From the NCBI GenBank assembly GCA_902792115.1, contig CADAYJ010000016.1, forward strand, positions 1-40,317: a stretch of DNA of 40,317 nucleotides, read 5' to 3'. The DNA is from an uncultured Ruminococcus sp. (GTDB lineage Bacteria; Bacillota; Clostridia; Oscillospirales; Acutalibacteraceae). Under the pieces are notes generated by a model that had not been told where the DNA came from, ran no database searches, and saw only the letters and a program-made list of their open reading frames with translations. Below, piece by piece: positions 27,686 to 40,080 of this stretch (positions are counted from its first letter, which is position 1; each line of letters starts with the position of its first letter). A program made the position numbers and the translations under genes.

Positions 27686-29085
27686 TTATTCTTCAGTCTT
27701 CTTTCTTGTGTAGAGAACTACAGCTGCTGCAGCCATGAGGATGACTACGAGAGAAACAACTGCGAATGTACCAGCTGTCTGAACTGTTGCTGTAGATGTA
27801 CCAGCTGTGGAACCGGTTGTACCCTTACCGGAAGATGTGTTCTTGGAAGCGTTGTCGCCAGTTGCCTTAGAAGATGTCTGAGAAGAGGATGCAGGCTTGC
27901 TGCTTGCAGGCTTGCTGCTCTCAGGCTTGCTGCTTGCAGGTGTGCTGCTCTCAGGCTGGCTTGAAGGCTCTTTCTCGTGCGGGCACTCAACTGTGAGCTT
28001 AGCGAAGGAATACGGATCCTCTGTGCTCTCAGCGCCGAGGAGCTTCTCTGTCTTAGAAGCGTCAGCTGTCATTGCGGAGAGGCTGGAGCATACGCCCTTG
28101 ATTGCTGCTGTTGTTGTATCCTTGTTTACCTTGAATACGAGCTTGTAAGCTGTTGTCTTGTCGCCTGTGAAATCCTGATCAAGGCCGAACGGAGCGATGT
28201 TACCGATCTTAACTGTACCAGCAACTGCTGTGTTAGCCATTGTTGTAGCGCCTTCACCTGTTGTAAGGTTTTCCTTTGTGTCGAGCTCAAATGCTTCTGC
28301 ATCGTATGTGATGTCGTAGTTGTAAGCGCCGAGCTTCGGAGTAGCTGCCGGGATACCACCGAACTGTACTTCAACTGTTACTGTGTCGCCAGCGTGGATC
28401 GGATCGCCCTCTGTTGCTACGGGAGCTGCATCTGTGTCAGCCGGAGCTGCATCTGTGTCAGCGCTGCATCTGTGTCAGCCGGAGCTGCATCTGTGTCAGC
28501 AGCCTCTGCTGCGAAGCCGTAAGAACCGTAGTATGTCTCGTTGCTCTTGTAGTTGTCCTTTGTGAACCAAGCGCCGCCAGCTGTCTCAGCGCCGCTGAGC
28601 TCGTTAACGCCCTTCTCGTTGAGGTTGAGAACGAATACCCAACCGTCGAAGTTAGCTGTGTCAACGGATGCATCGTAGGGGCACTCACCCTCAGATGCGT
28701 CGTAACCCTCAAGGTTAACGTCCTTTGTCTGATGAGCTACTGCTGCGAGCTCAGGATCCTGCGGTGTGCCTGCATCAACGAATGCGTTGAATACGAGAGC
28801 TGTTGTCTTAGCGGGAACGCCTTCGATCTTGTAAACGTTCGGGCCAACCTCAGGAGCTGCTGTCATTGCCTGACCAGGCCACTTTGCGTTCTCCTCAGGA
28901 GACCACCAGTAAGCGCCTACGTCTGTGTTAGCTGCGCCAGATTCTGTCTTGCAGTAGTTGTCCGGAGCGAGGAAGTAGTATGTGCGTGTATCGTCAGCAG
29001 CTGCGGAAACAGCGCCGAAGCCTACGCAGAACATAGCTACGAGCATAGCTGCGGAAAGTAAGATACTAATGACTTTCTTGGACAT
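27686..29085 (-). pseudogene. Surface protein with starch-binding-like module, cohesin-like domain and membrane anchor, frameshifted
   Basis: Two adjacent frames form one gene. Frame 1 (29085 to stop at 28417, 222 aa) has a signal peptide (1-29, ending SAA) and a domain resembling CBM26-type starch-binding modules: TYYFLAPDNY, YWWSPEENAKWPG, NVYKIEG, LVFNAFVDAG and QTKDVNLEGYD. It runs into ADTDAAP repeats. Restoring four missing bases (next to 28462/28463) makes 1404 nt, exactly 468 codons, and joins frame 2: HAGDTVTVEVQFGGIP...LGAYNYDITYDAEAFEL, typical of a cohesin, then a Ser/Pro/Lys linker and a C-terminal helix with RKK tail (sortase-like VQTAG is possible, no LPXTG). An intact product would bind starch and dock dockerin enzymes on the cell surface. 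AAGGAGG precedes the ATG and the promoter is strong. The break may be real, phase-variable or a sequence error. The full reading frame on both sides argues that it is recent or artefactual. Confidence 0.8.
28421..28500 (-). repeat. 21-bp tandem repeat with one unit shortened to 17 bp
   Basis: Plus-strand units are 28421-28441, 28442-28462, 28463-28479 and 28480-28500. Three are 21 bp, coding ADTDAAP on the minus strand. The third lacks CGGA, which in the other units is the loop between CAGC and GCTG. This creates the frameshift in the surface-protein gene. Confidence 0.95.
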
Positions 29086-29328: not shown

Positions 29329-30339
29329 TCAATATCCGTCCGGGTTCTGAGTCTGCCACTTCCACATATCGCGGCACATATCCTCGAGCGTCAGCTCTGC
29401 CGTCCAGCCGAGAAGCTCCTTTGCCTTTGCCGCGTCGGCGTAGGACGTCGGAAGGTCGCCTGGTCTGCGCGGCTTGATCTCGTACGGTACATCTATATTG
29501 TTTACGCGCGCGAACGTGTTGACCACCTCGAGCACGCTGTGCCCCTTGCCGGAGCCGAGGTTGATCTCCTCGGAGCCTTTGTGATCCTTTGCGTAGCCGA
29601 GAGCGGCAACGTGGCCCTTTGCCAGATCTACGACGTGGATATAGTCGCGCACGCCGGTGCCGTCCTCCGTGGGATAATCGTCGCCGAAGACGCCGAGCTT
29701 TGGCAGCTTGCCGCCGGCAACTCTTGCGACGTACGGGAAGAGGTTGTTCGGAATGCCTGCCGGATCCTCGCCGATGAGGCCGCTTGAGTGAGCGCCGATC
29801 GGGTTGAAGTAGCGAAGCAGTACGACGGAAAGCTCCTTGTCCGCAAACGCTGCGTCACGGAGGATCTGCTCGCTCATCAGCTTCGTCCAGCCGTAGGGGT
29901 TAGTGCAGGTCGAGATCGGCATATTTTCATTATAAGGCGGCTCGTTCGTCTCGCCGTATACTGTGGCGGAGGAGCTGAATACGATATTCTTGACGCCGAA
30001 CTCGTTCATTACCTCCAGAAGCGTGATCGTGGAGTCGAGGTTGTTGCGGTAATACATTACCGGCTTGCTGACGGACTCACCGACCGCCTTGTATCCGGCA
30101 AAGTGTATAACGGCGTCGAGCTTCTGCTCGGAGAAGATGCGGCGAAGCGCTTCCTTGTCGGTTACGTCTGCCTCGTAAAAAGCAGGCTCCTTGCCGGTGA
30201 TGGTCTTGATCCTCTTGAGCACCTCCGGCTTGCTGTTTGAAAAATTGTCGGCGATAACCGCCTCGTGGCCGCTTTCGAGCAGCTCAACGCAGGTATGCGA
30301 GCCGATGAATCCGGCTCCGCCTGTCAGTAAGACTTTCAT
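29329..30339 (-). CDS. galE: UDP-glucose 4-epimerase
   Basis: 336 aa from the ATG at 30339 (AAGGAG about 8 nt upstream), where the protein starts MKVLLTGGAGFIGSHTCVELL; the frame is open upstream but that part overlaps the previous gene. It interconverts UDP-glucose and UDP-galactose using bound NAD, for galactose use and for glycan precursors. The Rossmann motif GGAGFIGSH, the catalytic Ser/Thr in SSSATVYG, and Tyr-x3-Lys in NPYGWTKLMSE are present, as is RYFNPIGAHSSGLIGEDP. It lies 28 nt after the unknown membrane protein, so the two are probably co-transcribed, next to the polymer-modification operon. Confidence 0.96.
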   Translation of the reverse strand: MKVLLTGGAGFIGSHTCVELLESGHEAVIADNFSNSKPEVLKRIKTITGKEPAFYEADVTDKEALRRIFSEQKLDAVIHFAGYKAVGESVSKPVMYYRNNLDSTITLLEVMNEFGVKNIVFSSSATVYGETNEPPYNENMPISTCTNPYGWTKLMSEQILRDAAFADKELSVVLLRYFNPIGAHSSGLIGEDPAGIPNNLFPYVARVAGGKLPKLGVFGDDYPTEDGTGVRDYIHVVDLAKGHVAALGYAKDHKGSEEINLGSGKGHSVLEVVNTFARVNNIDVPYEIKPRRPGDLPTSYADAAKAKELLGWTAELTLEDMCRDMWKWQTQNPDGY

Positions 30340-30367
30340 TATATAGGCTCCTTTCGGTTTTATACTG

Positions 30368-31531
30368 TTATTCCACAGCCTTGACGAGCGTTCTCGCCAT
30401 GCTGATGATCTCCTCGTAGTTGTATGTACGCTTGATATCGTCGATCTTCTTATCGGTAAATTTGCCGCACGACGCATCACAGTACCGTTTGAGCAGCGTG
30501 TACTGCGATGTAAAGTTCTCCGGAGAGCCGCTGAGCTTGCTCTGCCAGCTGCTCGTCACGCCCTGATCGTTTATTATACGGCAGAGAGCCGCTCCGACGT
30601 AGCTGTCGCCTGCCTCATTGAGAAATTCGCCGACATCGCTGTTGTAGCGCCCCGTGCAGAGGTAATAATACGCGCTGTAAAACGTGATCGGGTCGTCCTT
30701 CTCCTTGTTGAAGTACGTGATATTGTGGTCAATTTCCTCGCTGATGCGGTAGAAAACGTACAGCGCCGTTCCCTGCTCCAGCTCCGTCTGTATACGTCTG
30801 TTTGCAAATTTCGGGTACTTACTGTTCTGATACTCCCTCACGGCAACGTACTCCGCGAGAAGCTCGTTGAACTTTTCCCCGGAGCCTGCGGCGAGCATAT
30901 CGTCGATGATGCGGTACTGAAGACCGGTCAGCGCGATATTCTCCTCCTCGACCTCATACTGCGAGATAACGTCGTGCTCCGGTATATCGACGCTCTCGAC
31001 GCTTTCGGCAAAGGTATTTGAGATATACTGCTCCTCAAGAGAGCCTGTTCCGTTGTATTTCACGGACTGTATATCGAACGGAGACGCATAGACCGTTTTT
31101 CCTCGTACCTGAGTGAAACCTCCGTCCTCCATACCGGCGAGCTTAAACGTGAACGGCGTGAGATAAGCGAAGCGGTAGACGGGAATATCATTATATTCCT
31201 CCGGCATCTTGATGCGCTGCGCGTAAAGGCACTTGGGCGCGTTCATATTCACGGCGTACGTATAGCCCTTGACAAACCCGAAGCGGCGCGTGATAACGCA
31301 GGATTCATTTCTGAGGTTGTAGTCCTCCGTCCAGATATCCTCGTTGCCGTACTTGTCGTCGAAGAGAGCTGTCATTTGACACAGCTCCTCGATCGCATTT
31401 TTGTCCGTCTCGTCGAGCTGGACGAAGCTCGTCTTGCCGAGCTTATTGCTCACCAGGTCGGCACAAATGACGATAAGCGCCACTCCCAGCAGGATAAGTA
31501 TCAAATTGAATAATTTTTTTACGGCGCTCAT
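30368..31531 (-). CDS. Membrane-anchored extracytoplasmic protein of unknown function
   Basis: 387 aa; ATG at 31531 with GGGAGGTC upstream. One N-terminal helix (about residues 8-28) anchors it, and the remaining 350 residues are probably outside the cell. No signal-peptidase site or lipobox is evident. The first half is beta-rich with aromatic residues (YAVNMNAPKCLYAQRIKMPEEYNDIPVYRFAY). The second half is helical and contains RRIQTELEQGTALYVFYRISEEI and TFYSAYYYLCTGRYNSDVGEFL, loosely recalling the helical end of extracellular peptidases, but I see no HExxH or serine motif. It has its own promoter between the ACP gene and galE. Its place beside the MBOAT operon and galE suggests envelope polymer work. 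I do not recognise the family. Confidence 0.75.
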   Translation of the reverse strand: MSAVKKLFNLILILLGVALIVICADLVSNKLGKTSFVQLDETDKNAIEELCQMTALFDDKYGNEDIWTEDYNLRNESCVITRRFGFVKGYTYAVNMNAPKCLYAQRIKMPEEYNDIPVYRFAYLTPFTFKLAGMEDGGFTQVRGKTVYASPFDIQSVKYNGTGSLEEQYISNTFAESVESVDIPEHDVISQYEVEEENIALTGLQYRIIDDMLAAGSGEKFNELLAEYVAVREYQNSKYPKFANRRIQTELEQGTALYVFYRISEEIDHNITYFNKEKDDPITFYSAYYYLCTGRYNSDVGEFLNEAGDSYVGAALCRIINDQGVTSSWQSKLSGSPENFTSQYTLLKRYCDASCGKFTDKKIDDIKRTYNYEEIISMARTLVKAVE

Positions 31532-31716: not shown

Positions 31717-31956
31717 TCATATTCTCGACATGATTATCTCGACCATCTCGCCTACGTCCTTCATCGTTGAAACCTCGCCCATTCTGAACTTGATCCCAAA
31801 CTCCTTCTCGACTGCGGCGATCAGATTGATATGCTCCAGGCTGTCCCAATCGTCGATATCGTCAGCCGTTGTAAGGTCGTCCACCTCGATCGTGTCGTCG
31901 TCAAACACATCTCTGAAAACGTCGTTAAGTCTTTCGTAGATCTCTTCCTCGCTCAC
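31717..31956 (-). CDS. Acyl carrier protein of the Dlt-like operon
   Basis: 79 aa, acidic and helical, starting at GTG 31956 with AGGAGG 7 nt upstream. The phosphopantetheine site is Ser39 in DDWDSLEHINLI. The DxWDSLxHI form is nearer to carrier proteins of FkbH-type and D-alanyl (DltC) systems than to fatty-acid AcpP, which has DSLDTVE. It would carry a thioester-bound group loaded by the FkbH-like enzyme and hand it to the MBOAT protein. It is the last gene of the operon, 24 nt after the FkbH gene. No phosphopantetheinyl transferase is in the window. Confidence 0.92.
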   Translation of the reverse strand: MSEEEIYERLNDVFRDVFDDDTIEVDDLTTADDIDDWDSLEHINLIAAVEKEFGIKFRMGEVSTMKDVGEMVEIIMSRI

Positions 31957-31980
31957 TGCAAACCCTCCTTCCTTGATTTA

Positions 31981-33771
31981 TTACAATGCCTCGTTGCCGT
32001 GGATACGGATCACGCTGCATTTCTTTTCGTAATTCTCAACGGGCAGCTCCCATACGGTGTTGCCCTCGTCGTCCTCGCTGATCTTCTCAAAGCCGAACGT
32101 GCCGTACAGCTCCTTGACCATCTTGTTCTTGGCGGTCGGGTAGTAATAGCCCCTGATCGTCTTAATGCCCTGCTCGCGGCACTTGTCAACGAGCGTATCG
32201 AGCATTGCGAACTCCATGTCGCGCTTCAGGACGCGGCAGCTCATCAGCCAAAGCTCCATATTGAGCACGACGCCGTCCTTCTTTCCGATAACGACGGAAA
32301 CGACGCCGTTGTCGCCGAATTTGTCGATCAGCTTGCCGTAGAGCCTGATATACTCGCTGCTTTCAAACACCGCCTCCATCTCGGCTGCCGTGTAGCGCTT
32401 CGTCGTGACGTTAAACTGATTGCTCTTGTTTGAGAGCTGGGTGATACGCTGAATATACATCGGCGTGAAGTCGTCGATAACGGCGTCCATCTCAAGGCTC
32501 AGAAGGTAATCCGAGTAATTTTCAAACGCCGCCTGCTGCGCCGCGCGCTCCGCGTTAGCCTTGTACATCTCGTTGCGCTTGAGGTCGTCGTCGCTGAACG
32601 TCGTGATATCGAAGAAGCCGCTTCTGTCGAGCGTTCTGATGTAATTCTCGACGGAATCCATCTCCGGAGCGCATACTCCCGGAAGCTGCGAGCGAACGAT
32701 CGCGCGCTCGGCGGGGTTGTCGTCCACAAAGACGATCGAATCGGGGAGAATGTTCAGCTGCTGCGCCGTCTCGGCGATATTGCGATCCTTGTTCTCCCAG
32801 TTCGCCTTTATTATGATGAAATCATCGGGACGCAGAGCGCCCTCGGGGTGATTAAGGCCTGCCACAGCGTTCTCCTCGTCGTTCTTTGAGCAGACGGTCA
32901 GCATAACGCCAAGCTCGCGCTGCGCCTTAAGGTACGACTGGAACTCGTAGTAGCTCTGAGCCACGCCCGTTTCCTGCCCGATCTGGATATGCTCGACTCC
33001 GTCGTCTCCGACGACGCCGCCCCAGAGGGTGTTGTCAAGGTCGAGCGCTAGAGCCTTCTTGTTCTTGCCGAATACCGACTTTATGATATTCGCCGTGTTG
33101 AACGCAAGCTCGGGGATCGCCTCGAAGCAGAGCGCGTACTTGTACATATTCCAGTACATCGGGTTCGACCACTTCTCAAGACCGTAGCTTGCCGCGATAT
33201 AGTTGATATCATTTATATAGAAATTGGGCGTCTCGTCGGCGTGATCGTAGAAACGCTCGTTGAGGCGCGTGATAAAGCGCTCGCGGCCCCTGTAATCGGA
33301 GCTGTCCTTGTTGCCCATCAGCCGAAAGAGCGGCAGCTCGAAGTTGTTCTGAATGATCGGACAGCCGAAGCGCGAGGAGAGCGCGTCCCACATCTTCCTG
33401 AAGCGGTCAAATTCGCCCGCGAGCAGGTCGTTTACAGCCTCGCGGCTGTCCGTGACCTTCGGAAATGCCGTTATATTGCGGTTCGTCGTGTGGATAAACA
33501 CAATATCCGGCTTGAAGGAGATAAGCTCCTCGCCGGGAAACATCGCGTCCTGCCAGTACTGAGCGTACTCGGACTGGTAGAACGTCGGCTCGATACCCTG
33601 GTCAAGCAGGAAAAGCTCCATGATCGAGACGATATCGTTCGTCGTCGAGCCTCCGAGCACGGCGATGTTCTTCTTTATGCGCGCCGAGCCGTCCGCAAGA
33701 AGCGCTTTGCGGAGCGATCTGCGCTTTTTCATTATATATGCAGAGTCAAACGGGTACTGCAGCTCAACCAT
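31981..33771 (-). CDS. FkbH-like HAD-IIIC enzyme (probable acyl/glyceryl-ACP loading enzyme)
   Basis: 596 aa; ATG at 33771 with AAAAGGAG overlapping the end of the previous gene. Three regions are seen. An SGNH-like N-terminal part (about 25-220) has IAVLGGSTTNDIVSIM and PDIVFIHTTNRN. A HAD phosphatase domain (about 230-390) has ALALDLDNTLWGGVVGDD (D-x-D), the cysteine in VCSKNDEENA, and VFVDDNPAERAIVR. A GNAT-like C-terminal part (about 430-590) ends in KELYGTFGFEKI. FkbH-family enzymes in polyketide pathways dephosphorylate 1,3-bisphosphoglycerate and place a glyceryl group on an ACP. With the ACP gene next in the operon, I infer the same kind of loading here. The chemical group is not proven. 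An annotation as plain HAD phosphatase would miss this. Confidence 0.88.
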   Translation of the reverse strand: MVELQYPFDSAYIMKKRRSLRKALLADGSARIKKNIAVLGGSTTNDIVSIMELFLLDQGIEPTFYQSEYAQYWQDAMFPGEELISFKPDIVFIHTTNRNITAFPKVTDSREAVNDLLAGEFDRFRKMWDALSSRFGCPIIQNNFELPLFRLMGNKDSSDYRGRERFITRLNERFYDHADETPNFYINDINYIAASYGLEKWSNPMYWNMYKYALCFEAIPELAFNTANIIKSVFGKNKKALALDLDNTLWGGVVGDDGVEHIQIGQETGVAQSYYEFQSYLKAQRELGVMLTVCSKNDEENAVAGLNHPEGALRPDDFIIIKANWENKDRNIAETAQQLNILPDSIVFVDDNPAERAIVRSQLPGVCAPEMDSVENYIRTLDRSGFFDITTFSDDDLKRNEMYKANAERAAQQAAFENYSDYLLSLEMDAVIDDFTPMYIQRITQLSNKSNQFNVTTKRYTAAEMEAVFESSEYIRLYGKLIDKFGDNGVVSVVIGKKDGVVLNMELWLMSCRVLKRDMEFAMLDTLVDKCREQGIKTIRGYYYPTAKNKMVKELYGTFGFEKISEDDEGNTVWELPVENYEKKCSVIRIHGNEAL

Positions 33772-33786
33772 TGTCAGTCTCTCCTT

Positions 33787-35472
33787 TTAGTAGCCTTCTT
33801 CGTAATACTCGCCGCCGGCGTCTTCGCCGGAGCCGTCGTCATAGGACGGCTCCTGTGCGTCCTCCGCAGGAAGGTCATTCGGCTCGTTTATTATCTCCTC
33901 GGAAGACGAGCTTTCCTCCTGCGAGGAGCTTTCCTCCGTCTTGTCGTCCGGAGCTATCGGAGCAGCCGTCACGCCGGACGTGCGGATCGCCTCCAGGTTG
34001 TCGGCGTTCGGTCCGACAGCCGAGTACGAGCAGCAGGTGAAGAGAAGATCGGTAATGCCCATCTCGTTCACAAAATTGACGAGGTTCCTCTGGAAGTAAC
34101 GCATATCGACGACGTAGACCTCCTCGAAAGAGCCTGTGAGGAACGGTACAAAGGCGTCGCCGTAGCTGTCCTTTACGACGAGGCAGCGCCTGCCGTTCTT
34201 AACTCCCGTCGTGATCTTTACGCTGTATGCGTCGCCGCTGATAAACGTGCTGTAATATTCGCTGGTGACCTGAACGTCAACGAAGAGGTCGCCCTCGTAA
34301 ACGTAGTTGAAGGCGTAGTCGTAATACTCCGTCTTGTAGTCCTGCTTCTTCGGAACGTAGTAGATGAAGTCCTCCGGATCGGAGAGCAGATCCGCGTTAT
34401 TGCCGGAGAAGGTGTAGAGCGTGCCGACGTAGTCCGGCTTTGTAAGCCTTGTGTACTGCGAAAGCTCAAGGAACGGCACGCCTGCCGCCGAAGCGAACTC
34501 CTTTGCGGCGTAGTATGCGCCGAGGGACATCCAGTGATGATCCGTTCTGGTGTAGATCGTCTCCTTCTTGTGCGAAAGCAGCGCCGGGCAGACATTGATG
34601 CCCGTCACGTTGTGCAGCTTGGAGTTCATATCTACGATATCGTCCTCCTGGCTCGCGTTGTAGTCGGAGAAATTCTCAGGCGTATAGAACTCGCTGGCAG
34701 TCGGAGCAACGAGAGAATAAACGCGAACGCCCGGGAGGTCGGAAGCGTAATTGTTGACAGCGTTGACGTAAGCGTCGCCGGAGCCGCCGCCGTACATAGA
34801 CATAGCTCTGTAATGACCGTCCTGATAAACGACGATAACGCCGTTTGCGTAGACGCCCTCTGCGATCTCCTCGCCCTTCACCTGCTTTTCGGTGTCGGTA
34901 TCCGTTTGGGAATCGGAGTCGCTCGAAATACTCTTGCCGTAATTCTTCTCGCTCGAAGCGGCGCCCGACGAAGCGGCAGCCGAGGAAGCGCCCTCCTTGT
35001 CGCCGTCCTTCGGCTTCGGGTTTACGACCTCCATCGTACCGGAGACCTGAACGTCGTTGTACTTAATGCCGAAAATGCTGTTGAAGTAGCTTGCCGCCTG
35101 CTTCAGCGTATCGCGGAAGGGTACGGTGTCGTCAAAATAATTTGCGACGTCGGCTGTGTACTGTCCGCTCCAGTAGTCGTTCCATGAAAATTCGGGGAAC
35201 GTCGCGAGGTTTCTTTTCTCTATATTTGACACGGTAGAGCGCGGAAGCAAATCGGCAAATACGAGCAGCGCGATATACATCGGCACTATCACCGTGAGGG
35301 AAGCAAGCCTTGCCCAGAAGCGCTTGTCGCTCTTCCGGCGGTTGATGTTGACCTCTTCCTTTTCAGCCGGCATACCGTACGTACCTTTACTGTAAGGAGC
35401 GCCCTTTACCGCGTTGAAAACAGCCGTCTTCTGTTCGCGCCTCGGGCTGCCGTATCTTTTTTTATTATTCAT
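33787..35472 (-). CDS. AlgX/DHHW-family membrane-anchored protein (DltD-like role)
   Basis: 561 aa; AAGGGAG precedes the ATG at 35472. A basic cytoplasmic N-terminus of about 55 residues is followed by one helix (about 55-75), so the main part is outside. Features of the AlgX/AlgJ/DHHW family are EKRNLATFPEFSW, the YFDDTVPFRDTLKQAASYF region, the TDHHWMSLGAYYAAKEFA motif (Asp and His of the active site), and a candidate serine in VVKDSYGDAFVPFL. Residues about 165-195 form a Ser/Asp-rich insertion, and the last 60 residues are a very acidic Ser/Glu/Asp tail. Such proteins work with MBOAT acyltransferases on extracellular polymers, as AlgX does for alginate acetylation. It lies 18 nt after the MBOAT gene and 15 nt before the FkbH gene. 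Confidence 0.88.
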   Translation of the reverse strand: MNNKKRYGSPRREQKTAVFNAVKGAPYSKGTYGMPAEKEEVNINRRKSDKRFWARLASLTVIVPMYIALLVFADLLPRSTVSNIEKRNLATFPEFSWNDYWSGQYTADVANYFDDTVPFRDTLKQAASYFNSIFGIKYNDVQVSGTMEVVNPKPKDGDKEGASSAAASSGAASSEKNYGKSISSDSDSQTDTDTEKQVKGEEIAEGVYANGVIVVYQDGHYRAMSMYGGGSGDAYVNAVNNYASDLPGVRVYSLVAPTASEFYTPENFSDYNASQEDDIVDMNSKLHNVTGINVCPALLSHKKETIYTRTDHHWMSLGAYYAAKEFASAAGVPFLELSQYTRLTKPDYVGTLYTFSGNNADLLSDPEDFIYYVPKKQDYKTEYYDYAFNYVYEGDLFVDVQVTSEYYSTFISGDAYSVKITTGVKNGRRCLVVKDSYGDAFVPFLTGSFEEVYVVDMRYFQRNLVNFVNEMGITDLLFTCCSYSAVGPNADNLEAIRTSGVTAAPIAPDDKTEESSSQEESSSSEEIINEPNDLPAEDAQEPSYDDGSGEDAGGEYYEEGY

Positions 35473-35490
35473 AGCATCGTTCTCCCTTCT

Positions 35491-36894
35491 TTAGAATCTG
35501 AAATAGAGGAACGGGTTGCTTGTCGCGTCAACAAGCAGCAGTGAGCTTATTACGAGGAGCGAAATGCAGTAAGCGACCTTCAGCGCCTGCCCGACGGCGA
35601 TCGTGCGCGTCGAGCGGTCCGAGAGCTTGTTGACGAGCTTGCTCACAGGGAAGCAGGCAAGAACAGCCACGCCGATAAGGAAGCAGTTGTTGATGAGCGA
35701 CGTCGCGGAGATCGTGTCGGTGAGCGCGTTGCCGTTGAGACCGACGAGATTCTTGAAGAAATTGCCAAGCTGCGTAAAGTCCTCGAAGTAGAAGATACCG
35801 AAGCCGACAATGATAACGATCTTGCTGTAAATATGCGTAATGACGGCAGGTATCGCCTTCATTCGCTTTTTGCCCATGAGCTGCTCCAGGAATATGAATA
35901 TTCCGAAGTACAGTCCCCAGATGATATAGTTCCACGAAGCGCCGTGCCACATACCGGTGCAGAACCAGACAATGAAAAGGTTGATGTGAGCGTGGATCTT
36001 TCCGCCGATCGGAACGTAGAGCAGGTAGTCGCGGAAGAAGGAGCCGAGCGAGATGTGCCAGCGCTGCCAGAATTCCGCGATATTGCGGCAGATAAACGGA
36101 TACTTGAAGTTTTCGTCGAAGTGGAAGCCGAAGATCCTGCCGAGACCGATCGCCATATCGGAGTATCCGCTGAAATCAAAGTAGACGTACATCGCGTACA
36201 CGATAACGGTGTACCACGTCGCGAAGACGGAAAGCCCCGAGATATCGCCGCCGAAGAAGCTCTCCACGATCGTCCAGAGGTTATTCGCAAGAATGACCTT
36301 CTTCGCAAGACCGATCATAAAGCGGCACGAGCCCTCCGCGAGATCCGTAACGGTAGTTTTGCGGTTGTCGATCTCCTTCTCGACTACGCTGTATCGGACG
36401 ATAGGTCCGGCGATGAGCTGCGGGAAGAGCGAAACGAAGAGAAGGAAGCGGAAGTAATTCTTCTGCACCTTGACCTTGCCCCAGTAGCAGTCGATCACAT
36501 ACGAGAGGATCTGGAAGGTGTAGAAGCTGATGCCGATCGGGAGCGTGATCTTCGGCACGGGAAGGCTTACGAAGGGGATCGCGTTCAGATTCTCAACGAT
36601 AAATCCCATATACTTGAAGATCACAAGCATACCGAGGCTGAACGTGAGCGATCCGCCGAGCGCGAGCTTTCCCATCTTGTCCTCGCGGTGCTTGTCGATC
36701 GCAAGCCCCAGCAGCCAGTTGACTATCGTGCTCAGTATCAGCAAAAATACAACCGTCGGCTCGCCCCAAGCGTAGAAGACGAGTGAGAAGACGATCAGAA
36801 CGGCGTTCTTGTACTTAACATTCTTGTTCAGGAAGTAAAACAGCAAGCACGCCGGCAGGAAGATGTACAGAAAAAACAGATCTGCAAATACCAT
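35491..36894 (-). CDS. MBOAT-family membrane O-acyltransferase (AlgI/DltB type)
   Basis: 467 aa with about eleven transmembrane helices; GAAGGGA precedes the ATG. The family core is complete: LIAGPIVRYSVVEKEI, YVYFDFSGYSDMAIGLGRIFGF, CRNIAEFWQRWHISLGSFFRDYLLY, PIGG, and the catalytic His in FCTGMWHGASWNYIIWG. Such enzymes move an acyl group across the membrane from a cytoplasmic donor to an extracellular acceptor. Acetyl-CoA is the donor for AlgI relatives and D-alanyl-DltC for DltB. The ACP and FkbH genes in this operon suggest a carrier-bound donor, as for DltB. It is the first gene of the operon, behind a strong promoter. Confidence 0.95.
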   Translation of the reverse strand: MVFADLFFLYIFLPACLLFYFLNKNVKYKNAVLIVFSLVFYAWGEPTVVFLLILSTIVNWLLGLAIDKHREDKMGKLALGGSLTFSLGMLVIFKYMGFIVENLNAIPFVSLPVPKITLPIGISFYTFQILSYVIDCYWGKVKVQKNYFRFLLFVSLFPQLIAGPIVRYSVVEKEIDNRKTTVTDLAEGSCRFMIGLAKKVILANNLWTIVESFFGGDISGLSVFATWYTVIVYAMYVYFDFSGYSDMAIGLGRIFGFHFDENFKYPFICRNIAEFWQRWHISLGSFFRDYLLYVPIGGKIHAHINLFIVWFCTGMWHGASWNYIIWGLYFGIFIFLEQLMGKKRMKAIPAVITHIYSKIVIIVGFGIFYFEDFTQLGNFFKNLVGLNGNALTDTISATSLINNCFLIGVAVLACFPVSKLVNKLSDRSTRTIAVGQALKVAYCISLLVISSLLLVDATSNPFLYFRF

Positions 36895-37290: not shown

Positions 37291-40080
37291 GTGAAAAGAA
37301 CAGATGGAAGATCGACACAAAAGAATAAACTGACCGCTCTTGACGCATGGGCGATCGCCTTCGGCTGCATGGTCGGGTGGGGAGTTTTCGTTATGCCGGG
37401 AACTACGTTCCTTCCCGTTGCCGGTCCTGCCGGCTCCGTTATCGCAATGCTCATCGGAACGGTCATAATGCTGATAATCGGCTGCAACTTCGCGTTTCTG
37501 ATGAAGCGAAGCCCCGGACCGGGAGGTATATATACATATACGAAGGAGGCGTTCGGGCAGGATCACGCTTTCCTCAGCTCGTGGTTCCTCTGCCTGTCGT
37601 ACCTTACGATCGTCTTTCTCAACGGCACGGCGCTTTTTATCGTGCTGAGAACGATCTTCGGAGACATGATCCAGACGGGTTACAGCTACACCGTTGCCGG
37701 AAACAGCATCTACCTCGGTGAGATCATCATCTCCGCAGCAGCGCTTGCCGGAGTGGGGCTTCTCTGCATTTCCGGTAAGACGCTTATACGTATCCTTCAT
37801 ACGATCTTCTCCATCGTGCTTATCCTCGGCATACTTACGCTTGGCGTGATCTGCGTTCCGAAGGCCGTGGAGAGCGGCGCGTTTTTCGACTTCGCTCCTA
37901 AAGGCGAACACATAGTATACGGCATTTTCAGCATCGTATTCCTTGCGCCGTGGGCGTTCGTCGGCTTTGATGTTATCTGCTTTGATACAGCCAATTTCAA
38001 ATTCGAAATCTCAAAGTCGAAGCATATCATCGTTATCTCGATCATTCTCGCCGGAATCGCATACGGCACGATGGCAGTCGTCGGCGCGTCCTGTGTGCCG
38101 GACGGCTACAAAAGCTGGGCGGAGTATATCCCGAACATCAAAAGCCTCTCGTCGATCGAGGCCGTTCCGACCTTTTACGCGGCGCAGACGATGCTCGGAA
38201 AGCCCGGTCTAATCATTGCAGGCGTAACGGCGCTCACGGCCGTTTTGACAGGCATCATCGGCGGATACCGCGGAACGATCCGCGTCCTTTCCGCGATGGC
38301 GGAGGATAAGATCCTCTCAAAGATGTTCACAAAGACGACGTACAGCATACTCTTCGTCATGATCTTCTCGATCATGCTGGCGCTTCTCGGAAGGAACACG
38401 CTCGGCTGGTTCGTCGATCTTACGTCGTTCGGCGCGATCGTCGGCTTCGGCTACACGTCCGCAGCGGCGTACAAGATCGCAAAAAAGGAGAGCAACGCAA
38501 ACATCAGGCTCACGGGCTTTTTCGGCACGCTCATCTCCGTCCTCTTCATCATCGTGCAGCTCGTTCCGCACCTTACCGCAATGGAGGCGATGGGCAGCGC
38601 GGCGTTTCTGCTGCTTTCGGTGTGGTGTCTGCTCGGCTACGTCTTCTACTGGCGGACGATCACGCACGACACCTTCACGGAGTACAGCGGCATATCTACG
38701 CTCGGCGTCGTATTGTTTGCGCTCCTGCTTTATTCCGTATTCATGTGGCTTGCAAAGCTGGTGGCGTCGAGAAGGACTCTCGAGGACGTACACACTGCCG
38801 TCGTTTTCGGCGGCGTGACGCTTATAATCATTGTATTTATCGGACTCTCCGTCATGCTGTATATACAGAATCTCGTTCGTATCAAGCACGAATCCGCCGA
38901 GCGCGAAAGGATCCGTGAGATGGAGCGCAGCAACGCAAAGAGCCAGTTCCTTTTCAATATGTCTCACGATATCAGAACACCGATGAACGCGATCATCGGG
39001 TACACGAACCTCGCGCTTAAGGAGCCGTCAAGCGAGCAGCTTCACGACTACATCATCAAGATCAATTCCTCCGGCCGGCACCTGCTCAACCTTATCAACG
39101 ATATCCTTGAGATGAGCCAGATCGAAAACGGCAAGATAGAGATCGAATGTATCCCTGCCGATATCAGAACGGTATTCGACGAGATATACGAGATGATGGA
39201 TGAGCAGATGAAGCAGAAGCGCATAGACTTCACCGTCAGCAATTCCGACGTCACGGACTGCTTCGTATACTGTGACGTCAAAAACTTCAACCGCGTTGTG
39301 CTCAACCTTCTGAGCAACGCATATAAATTCACGCCGGAGGGCGGCAGCATCTCCGCCTCTGTCTCCCAGAAGGGCAGAGACGACGACGGGCGCGGCATCT
39401 ATGAGATAAGCATCAAGGACAGCGGCATAGGAATGTCGGAGGAATTCGTCTCAAAGATGTTCAGCCCGTTTGAGCGCGAGCGCACCTCGACCGTCAGCGG
39501 CATCGAGGGAACCGGTCTCGGGCTGTCGATAATGAAGAGCATAGTAGACCTCATGGACGGCAAGATAGACGTAAAGACGGCGCCCGGCAAGGGAACGGAA
39601 ATGATAATCACGATCGCGTTTGAATTGGCGCAGGAATCCGATCTTCCGAAGAACGAGCCGGCAGAGGAAAAGGAGGAAGAAGCATCGGTCGATTTCACGA
39701 AGATGCGCCTTCTTCTCGTCGAGGACAACGCGATAAACATGGAGATCGCGAAGATGATCCTGAAGCAGTCGGGCTTTACAGTCGAGACGGCGGAAAACGG
39801 GCAGATTGCGCTCGACAAGGTATCAGCCTCGCAGCCGGGATATTACGACGCCGTTCTTATGGACGTGCAGATGCCGGTGATGGACGGCTACACGGCGGCA
39901 AAGAGGATCCGCGCGCTCGACAACGAGCAGCTCGCTCAGACGCCGATCGTCGCAATGACGGCGAACGCCTTCAAGGAGGACGAGGAAGCGGCGCTGAACG
40001 CCGGTATGCAGGCTCACATTGCAAAGCCGATAGACGTGCCGATACTATTAAAAACACTCACAAGGATACTCTCGAAGTGA
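37291..40080 (+). CDS. Amino acid permease fused to a hybrid histidine kinase with receiver domain
   Basis: 929 aa; start GTG at 37291, 7 nt after GGGAGAG. Residues about 12-450 are an APC-superfamily transporter (ALDAWAIAFGCMVGWGVFVMPG with the GxG-type helix 1 break, MKRSPGPGGIYTYTKEAFG, WAFVGFDVICFDTANFKF). About two further helices (residues 470-540) lead to a short coiled coil. HisKA has the phosphorylated His559 in FNMSHDIRTPMNAIIGY. HATPase_c has the N box NRVVLNLLSNAYKF (about 674), DSGIGM and GTGLGLSI. After a Glu-rich linker, a receiver domain (about 804-925) has Asp858 in VLMDVQMPVMDGY and a C-terminal IAKPID. The protein probably senses an external amino acid through the transporter part, as CbrA does with an SSS-family transporter. 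No separate response regulator is in the window. The domains are firm; ligand and output are unknown. Confidence 0.93.
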   Translation: MKRTDGRSTQKNKLTALDAWAIAFGCMVGWGVFVMPGTTFLPVAGPAGSVIAMLIGTVIMLIIGCNFAFLMKRSPGPGGIYTYTKEAFGQDHAFLSSWFLCLSYLTIVFLNGTALFIVLRTIFGDMIQTGYSYTVAGNSIYLGEIIISAAALAGVGLLCISGKTLIRILHTIFSIVLILGILTLGVICVPKAVESGAFFDFAPKGEHIVYGIFSIVFLAPWAFVGFDVICFDTANFKFEISKSKHIIVISIILAGIAYGTMAVVGASCVPDGYKSWAEYIPNIKSLSSIEAVPTFYAAQTMLGKPGLIIAGVTALTAVLTGIIGGYRGTIRVLSAMAEDKILSKMFTKTTYSILFVMIFSIMLALLGRNTLGWFVDLTSFGAIVGFGYTSAAAYKIAKKESNANIRLTGFFGTLISVLFIIVQLVPHLTAMEAMGSAAFLLLSVWCLLGYVFYWRTITHDTFTEYSGISTLGVVLFALLLYSVFMWLAKLVASRRTLEDVHTAVVFGGVTLIIIVFIGLSVMLYIQNLVRIKHESAERERIREMERSNAKSQFLFNMSHDIRTPMNAIIGYTNLALKEPSSEQLHDYIIKINSSGRHLLNLINDILEMSQIENGKIEIECIPADIRTVFDEIYEMMDEQMKQKRIDFTVSNSDVTDCFVYCDVKNFNRVVLNLLSNAYKFTPEGGSISASVSQKGRDDDGRGIYEISIKDSGIGMSEEFVSKMFSPFERERTSTVSGIEGTGLGLSIMKSIVDLMDGKIDVKTAPGKGTEMIITIAFELAQESDLPKNEPAEEKEEEASVDFTKMRLLLVEDNAINMEIAKMILKQSGFTVETAENGQIALDKVSASQPGYYDAVLMDVQMPVMDGYTAAKRIRALDNEQLAQTPIVAMTANAFKEDEEAALNAGMQAHIAKPIDVPILLKTLTRILSK

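Follow-up and report, generated by a model that had tools for sequence, protein, structure and literature searches.

An MBOAT-SGNH gene cassette with a probable FkbH-type loader and a carrier protein in an uncultured Ruminococcus sp. and its relatives

Introduction

How might an acyl group be loaded onto a carrier protein and passed to the cell envelope by an operon in which an FkbH-type enzyme stands where a Dlt operon has the AMP-forming ligase DltA? This question is raised by four minus-strand genes at positions 31717-36894 of a 40,317-nucleotide stretch of DNA from an uncultured Ruminococcus sp. (contig CADAYJ010000016.1, assembly GCA_902792115.1), the whole of which was analysed and is called the window below. 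The genes encode, in this order, a membrane-bound O-acyltransferase (MBOAT), an SGNH-type extracytoplasmic protein with a DHHW motif, an FkbH-type enzyme and an acyl carrier protein (ACP). In the Dlt route, the carrier DltC hands D-alanine via DltB to the microprotein DltX, whose FXYXXF motif supplies the receiving tyrosine; DltD receives it next. A sequence-only reading of the window had proposed a probable new surface-polymer acylation system, and this is supported by the conserved co-occurrence of the genes, the invariant FkbH residues and a donor-site loop of the carrier-linked kind in the MBOAT. The cassette is a real and conserved system, probably a variant form of envelope acylation by an MBOAT-SGNH pair, and it is likely that it works in an ACP-dependent way and acylates a surface polymer, with FkbH loading the carrier.

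Results and Discussion

The four genes are conserved as a set

The tight packing described in the earlier reading was borne out for all four open reading frames in position and strand, with intergenic gaps of 18, 15 and 24 nucleotides. A purine-rich stretch resembling a ribosome-binding site lies 5' of each of the four starts; promoter and terminator scans of the operon gave chance-level results only.

The best 80 of at least 365 FkbH relatives in the species-genome collection, a sample biased to close relatives, were taken together with the window as 81 loci. Relatives whose FkbH is as little as 61% identical still have the same genes in the same order and on the same strand, and no flanking gene family, as clustered, is found in more than 25 of the loci. 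Since gene set, order and strand recur while the flanks vary, the cassette is more than a chance neighbourhood. The MBOAT gene lies upstream on the same strand in 56 of the 81 loci. At 14 loci the contig ends before the MBOAT position can be judged; L058 and L096, which are among them, have a gene other than DHHW immediately upstream of FkbH. The remaining 11 have no upstream MBOAT despite at least 4.2 kb of upstream sequence, and in two of them (L092 and L103) an MBOAT lies downstream instead. The carrier directly follows FkbH in 77/81 loci. Among the other four, L042 and L088 end close to the edge of their contigs, the carrier of L103 is found some 2 kb downstream, and at L041 none was found.

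Whole genomes were then considered for nine loci without an MBOAT, three cut-off loci and two MBOAT-bearing loci. An MBOAT of the cassette clade (592-654 bits) was present in all 14 genomes, with an adjoining DHHW gene in nine; the nine genomes with an MBOAT-less FkbH locus thus all hold the cassette-clade MBOAT elsewhere. Across 60 relatives, full-length FkbH was present in 22 and the cassette-clade MBOAT (at least 585 bits) in 19; 19 genomes had both, three FkbH only, none the MBOAT only and 38 neither. The count of 22 leaves out G044 (a 29% match over part of FkbH) and includes G004 and G007, whose FkbH genes have one in-frame TAA each. In the three FkbH-only genomes (G005, G007 and G020) the FkbH contigs stop where the MBOAT would be expected. 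Other MBOATs, at 488 bits or below, occur in 26 of the 38 genomes with neither gene. Most of the positive genomes belong to one genus; G046 and G055, from other families, carry the whole cassette with two DHHW genes, and a named strain, Pseudoruminococcus massiliensis Marseille-P3876 (L081), has it too. Conserved co-occurrence, whose lack the earlier reading had named as grounds for giving up its proposal, is therefore seen even where the genes are unlinked, and chance neighbourhood was rejected on conserved order together with unlinked co-occurrence.

The MBOAT has a donor-site loop of the carrier-linked kind

The contacts between DltB and its carrier offer a point of comparison for a carrier-using MBOAT. 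Passages of PMC11035591 give Met302, Val305, Ile306, Met309, Lys312 and Arg317 as the DltC-binding residues of DltB, and in a gapped alignment these fall at the donor-loop position of the window MBOAT. The pairwise alignment is too gapped for single docking residues to be assigned, and the loop was therefore compared across groups of MBOATs.

The loop directly follows the WHxSL...FRDY stretch. It reads YIPLGGNR or a near variant in carrier-less MBOATs, for example LLYVPIFGKRR in cassette MBOATs, which are longer here by one residue, and LLYVPIGGKIH in the window. The pattern P[LM]GG[NS] was absent from all 56 linked cassette MBOATs, from 12 further MBOATs of the cassette clade (14 were read, two of them already within the 56) and from five MBOATs linked to AMP-ligases. 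It was present in 10/10 carrier-less sister or paralogous MBOATs; all of these sets were chosen ones. Five MBOATs linked to FkbH fall outside the cassette clade, and the pattern is missing from four of them. The closest-scoring fetched MBOATs without FkbH (L160-L164, 47-50% identity) have the P[LM]GG[NS] loop and a DHHW gene, and no carrier. A further difference is WQRWH in all 56 linked cassette MBOATs vs WRRWH or WKRWH in the 11 aligned carrier-less ones.

For an unselected comparison, 119 genomes spread evenly over the phylum were searched, which gave 36 MBOATs outside the window genome, all of them fetched with their neighbouring genes. The pattern was seen in 34/36, and a carrier was found beside none of the 34 within the fetched stretches, some of which are short owing to contig ends. 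The two MBOATs without the pattern, L199 in a Dlt operon and L202 in an AMP-ligase operon, are both carrier-linked (Fisher p = 0.0016 for loop against carrier). Carriers were detected with a profile built from those of this analysis; even the DltC of L199, a distant one, was picked up by it (20.5 bits). The correlation of loop and carrier and the DltC contacts in the same place make the donor loop a good candidate, as judged from sequence, for separating users of coenzyme A (CoA) from users of carriers. An acyl-CoA rather than ACP mode of the MBOAT, which the earlier reading had also held to be fatal to its proposal, was examined indirectly through this correlation, in which the cassette loop is of the carrier-linked kind. 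The loop signature offers a simple, testable sorting of unstudied bacterial MBOATs into carrier-dependent and carrier-less ones.

FkbH and its carrier retain the residues expected of a loading pair

The window FkbH has the N-terminal domain PF21211 (38.6 bits, cut-off 27) in addition to the family match given in Table 1; BF1531 (3SLR) was the sole solved relative found for it. In an alignment of 78 of the 81 cassette FkbHs (the gene caller missed three open reading frames) D244, D246, D350 and C512 are invariant, as they are in 18/18 FkbHs from outside the clade. K296 is kept in 78/78 and in 17/18 (one Arg). The loss of the HAD Asp-x-Asp or Cys residues in relatives, another outcome that would have spoken against the earlier proposal, was thus not seen. 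The outside set includes two FkbHs from tetronate-type clusters (L125 and L127), so that the active-site comparison called for in the earlier reading places the same Asp-x-Asp and Cys in both kinds of enzyme. Cys512 we take to be the acyl-binding cysteine of FkbH.

In tetronate-type clusters FkbH moves a glyceryl unit from 1,3-bisphosphoglycerate to an ACP (passages of PMC7489565 and PMC8949500). The cassette holds no oxidoreductase, methyltransferase or ketosynthase that could alter the loaded group. With no enzyme there for oxidation, methylation or condensation, the simplest guess is glyceryl without modification, and by analogy with the family the loaded group is probably glyceryl.

The same machinery could be fed by FkbH with another hydroxyacyl group or one derived from a different acyl phosphate, such as lactyl, glycolyl or a modified glyceryl, a variant that overlaps with the preferred reading in all but the group and that we regard as unlikely. 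It draws on L103 (11788-14219), where FkbH is followed by a split transketolase pair and then by ACP and MBOAT, and on L120, where a piece adjoining FkbH looks transketolase-like by eye. Transketolase-like pairs make glycolyl-ACP in natural-product pathways, and the genes at L103 and L120 may supply a different hydroxyacyl group. The window cassette, however, has no tailoring genes, and the Asp-x-Asp and Cys that its FkbH holds in common with those of tetronate-type clusters also speak for glyceryl.

A built-in tyrosine shuttle motif is paired with a PatB1-like partner

The closest solved structures to the window MBOAT are those of DltB (6BUG and 8JEM). His280 and His317 are invariant in 24 aligned MBOATs, and so are F462 and Y464 of the C-terminal FLYFRF. 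This tail fits FXYXXF, which passages of PMC12148441 describe as the acyl-shuttle motif of DltX and PatA. It was found in 55/56 linked cassette MBOATs, the exception being L093 (FLYRQY). By itself the motif is common, being C-terminal in 27/36 of the phylum-sample MBOATs as well. The unusual point is the pairing of a Pat-type built-in shuttle with a Dlt-type carrier.

For the DHHW protein, which has a hydrophobic stretch near its N-terminus (by eye), the closest solved structures are 4NZK and Bacillus cereus PatB1 (5V8D/5V8E). Three elements of PatB1 are retained in the window protein, namely the serine, the D-x-R and the DHHW box. All three catalytic motifs are complete in 65/71 cassette DHHW proteins; the six others comprise two fragments of less than 200 residues, one cut protein (369) and three without the D-x-R pattern. 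A Pfam search gave no DltD match for the partner, only DHHW (184 bits) and a weak ALGX match (27 bits). At one locus (L165:8401-9771) a second cassette DHHW protein also bears a YbbR domain.

The cassette differs from each known system that it resembles

With Dlt systems the cassette has in common, on the reading proposed here, a carrier-bound acyl group, a membrane MBOAT, an SGNH-type extracellular transferase, an FXYXXF tyrosine shuttle and a surface polymer as acceptor. It differs in its loader, FkbH rather than the AMP-forming DltA; in its MBOAT, which scores 160.4 bits against the DltB equivalog TIGR04091 (cut-off 375); in its shuttle, which is part of the MBOAT rather than a separate DltX; in its partner, a PatB1-like DHHW protein rather than DltD; and in its group, probably neutral glyceryl rather than cationic D-alanine. 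DltA is absent from the cassette, and no match to the DltA family TIGR01734 exceeded the cut-off in any of the 60 genomes. Weaker matches occur in 53 of them, with 398-495 bits in three order-level genomes (G047, G042 and G056); the three matches of the window genome fall in one 3006-residue reading frame. The gaps of 15-24 nucleotides leave no room for a separate DltX in the operon, and one elsewhere in the genome was not searched for. A plain Dlt operon was therefore rejected, since nothing in the cassette matched DltA, DltB or DltD and the operon lacks a separate DltX. Of the DltB-DltD-DltA-DltC logic assigned to these genes from sequence alone, the carrier, the MBOAT, the SGNH-type partner and the FkbH loader stand; the MBOAT is not DltB and has its own shuttle, and the partner is not DltD. 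The Dlt-like operon of G042 (L137), whose DltB-like MBOAT of 379 residues lacks both the C-terminal motif and the loop, indicates that true Dlt-like systems exist in the order beside the FkbH type.

The C-terminal FXYXXF in the MBOAT and the SGNH/DHHW partner are features of PatA/PatB, PatA1/PatB1, AlgI/AlgJ/AlgX and CcsH/CcsI, and the cassette DHHW protein has the catalytic residues of PatB1. These O-acetyltransferases are described without a carrier, with acyl-CoA use shown for PatA and proposed for the rest, in the relevant passages of PMC12148441. The cassette, in contrast, has a carrier and a loader and lacks the P[LM]GG[NS] loop (56/56).

Glyceryl-ACP synthases of the FkbH family, from tetronate, methoxymalonyl-ACP, vioprolide and suomilide pathways, resemble the cassette enzyme, which scores over the family cut-off and has the same Asp-x-Asp and Cys; tetronate clusters also have a stand-alone ACP adjoining FkbH. 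The cassette differs in having no polyketide or peptide assembly line and no tailoring enzymes, and in its link to membrane acyl transfer. A tetronate or methoxymalonyl cluster was rejected because the partner genes are lacking. In open-licence full text, with most subscription papers outside this scope, FkbH and MBOAT were found together in cyanobacterial peptide work only. The L-glyceryl ester of gellan is presumably a precedent for the proposed group; the literature search gave nothing useful on it.

AMP-ligase operons of related genomes (L155-L159 and L202) also have a carrier-linked MBOAT that lacks the P[LM]GG[NS] loop and has a tyrosine motif of its own at the C-terminus. Their loader is DltA-like and AMP-binding (259-297 bits for L155-L159, cut-off 560), and their MBOATs, of 514-533 residues, are of another kind. 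These operons are another carrier-linked MBOAT system and not a classical Dlt system; they and the cassette combine a carrier with a built-in tyrosine shuttle. Their carriers have about 75-100 residues, and most have a further putative extracellular protein; the two such partner proteins that were tested gave no Pfam match. The tail tyrosine motif of the L156 and L157 MBOATs is PIYAGF, and L156, L157 and L202 encode a protein resembling pyridoxal-phosphate decarboxylases (on a Pfam match for L156 and by eye for the other two).

FkbH is joined to MBOATs outside the cassette clade

An MBOAT tree was built from 16 cassette MBOATs and 13 others, with some N-termini trimmed and L160-L164 left out; an FkbH tree took in 23 of the 78 clade rows and 15 of the 18 from outside. 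In the MBOAT tree, those of the cassette fall into a single clade (100/100), which groups with FkbH-free MBOATs, and the FkbH-linked MBOATs of L092/L103 and L115/L124/L128 are placed outside it. Well-supported branches require at least two label changes, on a tree with long branches whose details are unsure. As the FkbH-linked MBOATs stand in separate places, FkbH-ACP seems, on this tree, to have been combined with at least two lineages of MBOAT.

Two of these pairings lie outside Bacillota. A Rhodobacteraceae plasmid (L124) carries ACP, FkbH, MBOAT and an unmatched gene, and Sinorhizobium meliloti pSymB (L128) has MBOAT, an unmatched gene, ACP and FkbH about 4 kb upstream of capsule and capsule-export genes. 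The gene between MBOAT and ACP in L128 is annotated as a TonB-dependent receptor, a label that looks wrong; L126, also from pSymB, has this gene set upstream of capsule genes too, with a near-identical copy of the L128 partner protein, and in strain 1021 FkbH lies in two frames. The partner proteins of L115 and L128 (for Pfam, the L126 copy) gave no convincing Pfam or PDB match, and that of L124 no convincing Pfam match. GxS-like motifs seen by eye only suggest that the partners of L115, S. meliloti and L124 are SGNH-like.

In a sample of 398 genomes spread evenly over the phylum, FkbH exceeded the cut-off in 14, the window's included. Apart from the window, 13 genomes gave 14 FkbH places; an MBOAT lies in the fetched stretch at two of them (L115 and L117), and two of the other contigs are shorter than 8 kb. 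Most FkbHs therefore do other things.

The acceptor may be a phosphopolymer

The earlier reading had stated that nothing shows the acceptor. This holds for the window, where no polymer gene adjoins the cassette; it does not hold for relatives, since genes for teichoic-acid- or capsule-type polymers lie upstream in 21 of the 48 loci with at least 2.5 kb of upstream sequence. Over 80 loci, 79 such upstream genes were found, all on the cassette strand. Downstream they occur in 2/45 loci, one being an overlap artefact (L079). The set comprised fusions of GT2 with a CDP-glycerol glycerophosphotransferase, short GT2, Stealth, ABC-2 permease, AT3, LicD and IspD. Domains were verified on one or two members per main family, the short GT2 was assigned by sequence likeness only, and "TagG-like" is a label given to the ABC-2 permease in this analysis. 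In the genome of the window, Stealth and TagF-like genes occur at other sites (L131). Our best guess from these neighbourhoods is that the acceptor may be a phosphopolymer, either teichoic-acid-like or capsular.

A proposed route and the evidence that weighs against it

In the route that we propose, FkbH would first dephosphorylate an activated three-carbon acid, most likely 1,3-bisphosphoglycerate, and place the glyceryl group on the phosphopantetheine arm of the ACP, as its tetronate-pathway relatives do. The energy would come from the acyl phosphate, and an AMP-forming ligase would therefore be unnecessary. The holo-ACP would then dock on the MBOAT from the cytoplasmic side, using the loop that matches the DltC site of DltB. 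With His317, the MBOAT would carry the acyl group through the membrane to its own Tyr464 in FLYFRF, by analogy with PatA and DltX. Ser436 of the DHHW protein would take the group from Tyr464 and esterify a hydroxyl of the surface polymer, as suggested by PatB and PatB1. The polymer would probably be a teichoic-acid-like or capsular phosphopolymer made by genes of the GT2-TagF, Stealth and TagG types, going by the neighbourhoods of relatives.

A more specific version of this route, towards which we lean only slightly, holds that glycolytic 1,3-bisphosphoglycerate is the direct source of both energy and carbon for the decoration of a Gram-positive surface polymer, that FkbH-ACP replaced acyl-CoA on a PatA/AlgI-like MBOAT, so that Oscillospiraceae of the rumen and gut and their kin make teichoic-acid-like or capsular phosphopolymers bearing glyceryl esters, and that the same loader was joined to other MBOAT lineages. 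If so, bacterial MBOATs would be a chassis whose donor loop tells CoA from carrier use. If FkbH loads glyceryl, there would be a direct link from glycolysis to decoration of the envelope, and in contrast to D-alanine the group put on would be a neutral one.

Several observations weigh against a carrier-fed route of this kind. The counts are not independent, because most of the genomes are related. The loop pattern was broadened post hoc from P[LIV]GG[NS][RK], which missed L172, L181 and L190 (PLGGSC, PMGGNR and PMGGNR); with that first pattern 31 phylum-sample MBOATs had the loop and five did not, and a carrier lay beside two of the five. The MBOAT of L115 keeps YFPLGGSKKG though it adjoins FkbH-ACP, the single exception to the loop rule among the five FkbH-linked MBOATs outside the clade. 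The acyl group is assumed by analogy with the FkbH family. As to the acceptor, none of the named polymer genes is seen at 27 of the 48 loci whose upstream sequence is long enough, and these genes do not adjoin the cassette in the nearest relatives any more than in the window. At L050, L051, L058 and L079, FkbH-ACP comes right after polymer genes with no MBOAT or DHHW gene nearby, so that FkbH-ACP may in addition supply a different acceptor or an AT3 enzyme; the four genomes hold an MBOAT-DHHW pair elsewhere.

The last layout is what would be expected if two systems lay in one operon, the MBOAT-DHHW pair O-acetylating a polymer from acetyl-CoA, as is thought for PatA1/PatB1 and CcsHI, and FkbH-ACP giving glyceryl to a cytoplasmic acyltransferase that decorates a sugar precursor. 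L123, where FkbH-ACP occurs with another acyltransferase (WcbI-type), fits such a division, as do the suomilide/varlaxin clusters, in which FkbH domain and MBOAT occur together and are given separate jobs (passages of PMC10143770, a further point against the preferred reading). An FkbH-domain gene, cj1302, also lies in the flagellar glycan locus of a Campylobacter jejuni strain in which pseudaminic acid carries dimethylglyceric acid, though the same source assigns that group to cj1295 (passages of PMC7099621). Such a division of labour is nevertheless improbable in our judgement: the MBOAT clade and FkbH go together one to one, also where the genes are not linked, the donor loop of this clade is unlike that of the examined carrier-less MBOATs, and the cassette has no other conserved acyltransferase. 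That the cassette makes a small secreted metabolite, tetronate-like or a lipid, and modifies no polymer is very hard to credit, for although the FkbH enzymes described in passages of PMC7489565 and PMC8949500 serve polyketide or peptide assembly lines, ketosynthase, FabH-like and nonribosomal peptide synthetase genes are absent from it, MBOAT-DHHW pairs are known or proposed to act on envelope polymers (passages of PMC9487903, PMC12148441 and PMC7710045), and relatives place it in polymer operons.

Features and neighbouring genes of the window

The source genome is 2.05 Mb in size and 90% complete, and its nearest relatives in the named genome collection are Clostridiales/Ruminococcus metagenome genomes from the rumen. 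Features of the cassette, and the first gene beyond it, are collected in Table 1.

Table 1. Positions of the cassette genes, their predicted functional sites and the gene that follows them
Feature	Positions	Strand	Remarks
MBOAT acyltransferase, 467 aa	35491..36894	-	PF03062 67.2 bits (cut-off 27)
Donor-site loop RDYLLYVPIGGKIH, residues 288-301	35992..36033	-	no P[LM]GG[NS]; PIGGK instead; one extra residue
Putative C-terminal acyl-shuttle motif FLYFRF, F462-F467, Tyr464	35494..35511	-	fits FXYXXF
DHHW (SGNH-type) extracytoplasmic O-acyltransferase, 561 aa	33787..35472	-	PF14286 184 bits (cut-off 25)
D311-H-H-W motif	34531..34542	-	DHHW protein, alignment to PatB1
Ser436 (KDSY), predicted catalytic serine	34165..34167	-	aligned with the KDSF serine of PatB1
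FkbH-type HAD-IIIC enzyme, 596 aa (FkbH_N, HAD, C-terminal part)	31981..33771	-	TIGR01686 264.7 bits (cut-off 146.65)
HAD motif D244-L-D246	33034..33042	-	both Asp invariant
Cys512 in SCRVLKR, candidate acyl-accepting cysteine	32236..32238	-	invariant
Acyl carrier protein, 79 aa, GTG start	31717..31956	-	PF00550 22.4 bits (cut-off 20.8); nearest solved structure 2LML
Ser39 in DDWDSL, predicted phosphopantetheine site	31840..31842	-	DWDS[LM] in 77/77 carriers beside FkbH
387-aa protein without family match	30368..31531	-	185 nt downstream of carrier; no Pfam/NCBIfam match

The gene for the 387-residue protein is present only in L024-L027 and L035, a close subclade, among 80 loci checked, and it is probably not part of the cassette core. 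It is followed by galE (29329-30345, minus strand), again in the same close relatives only; the contig of L027 stops inside galE. Further on, the product of 28417-29085 (minus strand) looks secreted; its CBM26 match stays below threshold (20.6 bits, cut-off 28.1), and a short repeat lies close to the C-terminus. On the other side, divergent from the cassette, 37291-40080 (plus strand) encodes a protein of 929 residues, an unusual fusion in which histidine-kinase and receiver domains are joined to a membrane part resembling amino-acid permeases (PF13520, PF00512, PF02518 and PF00072).

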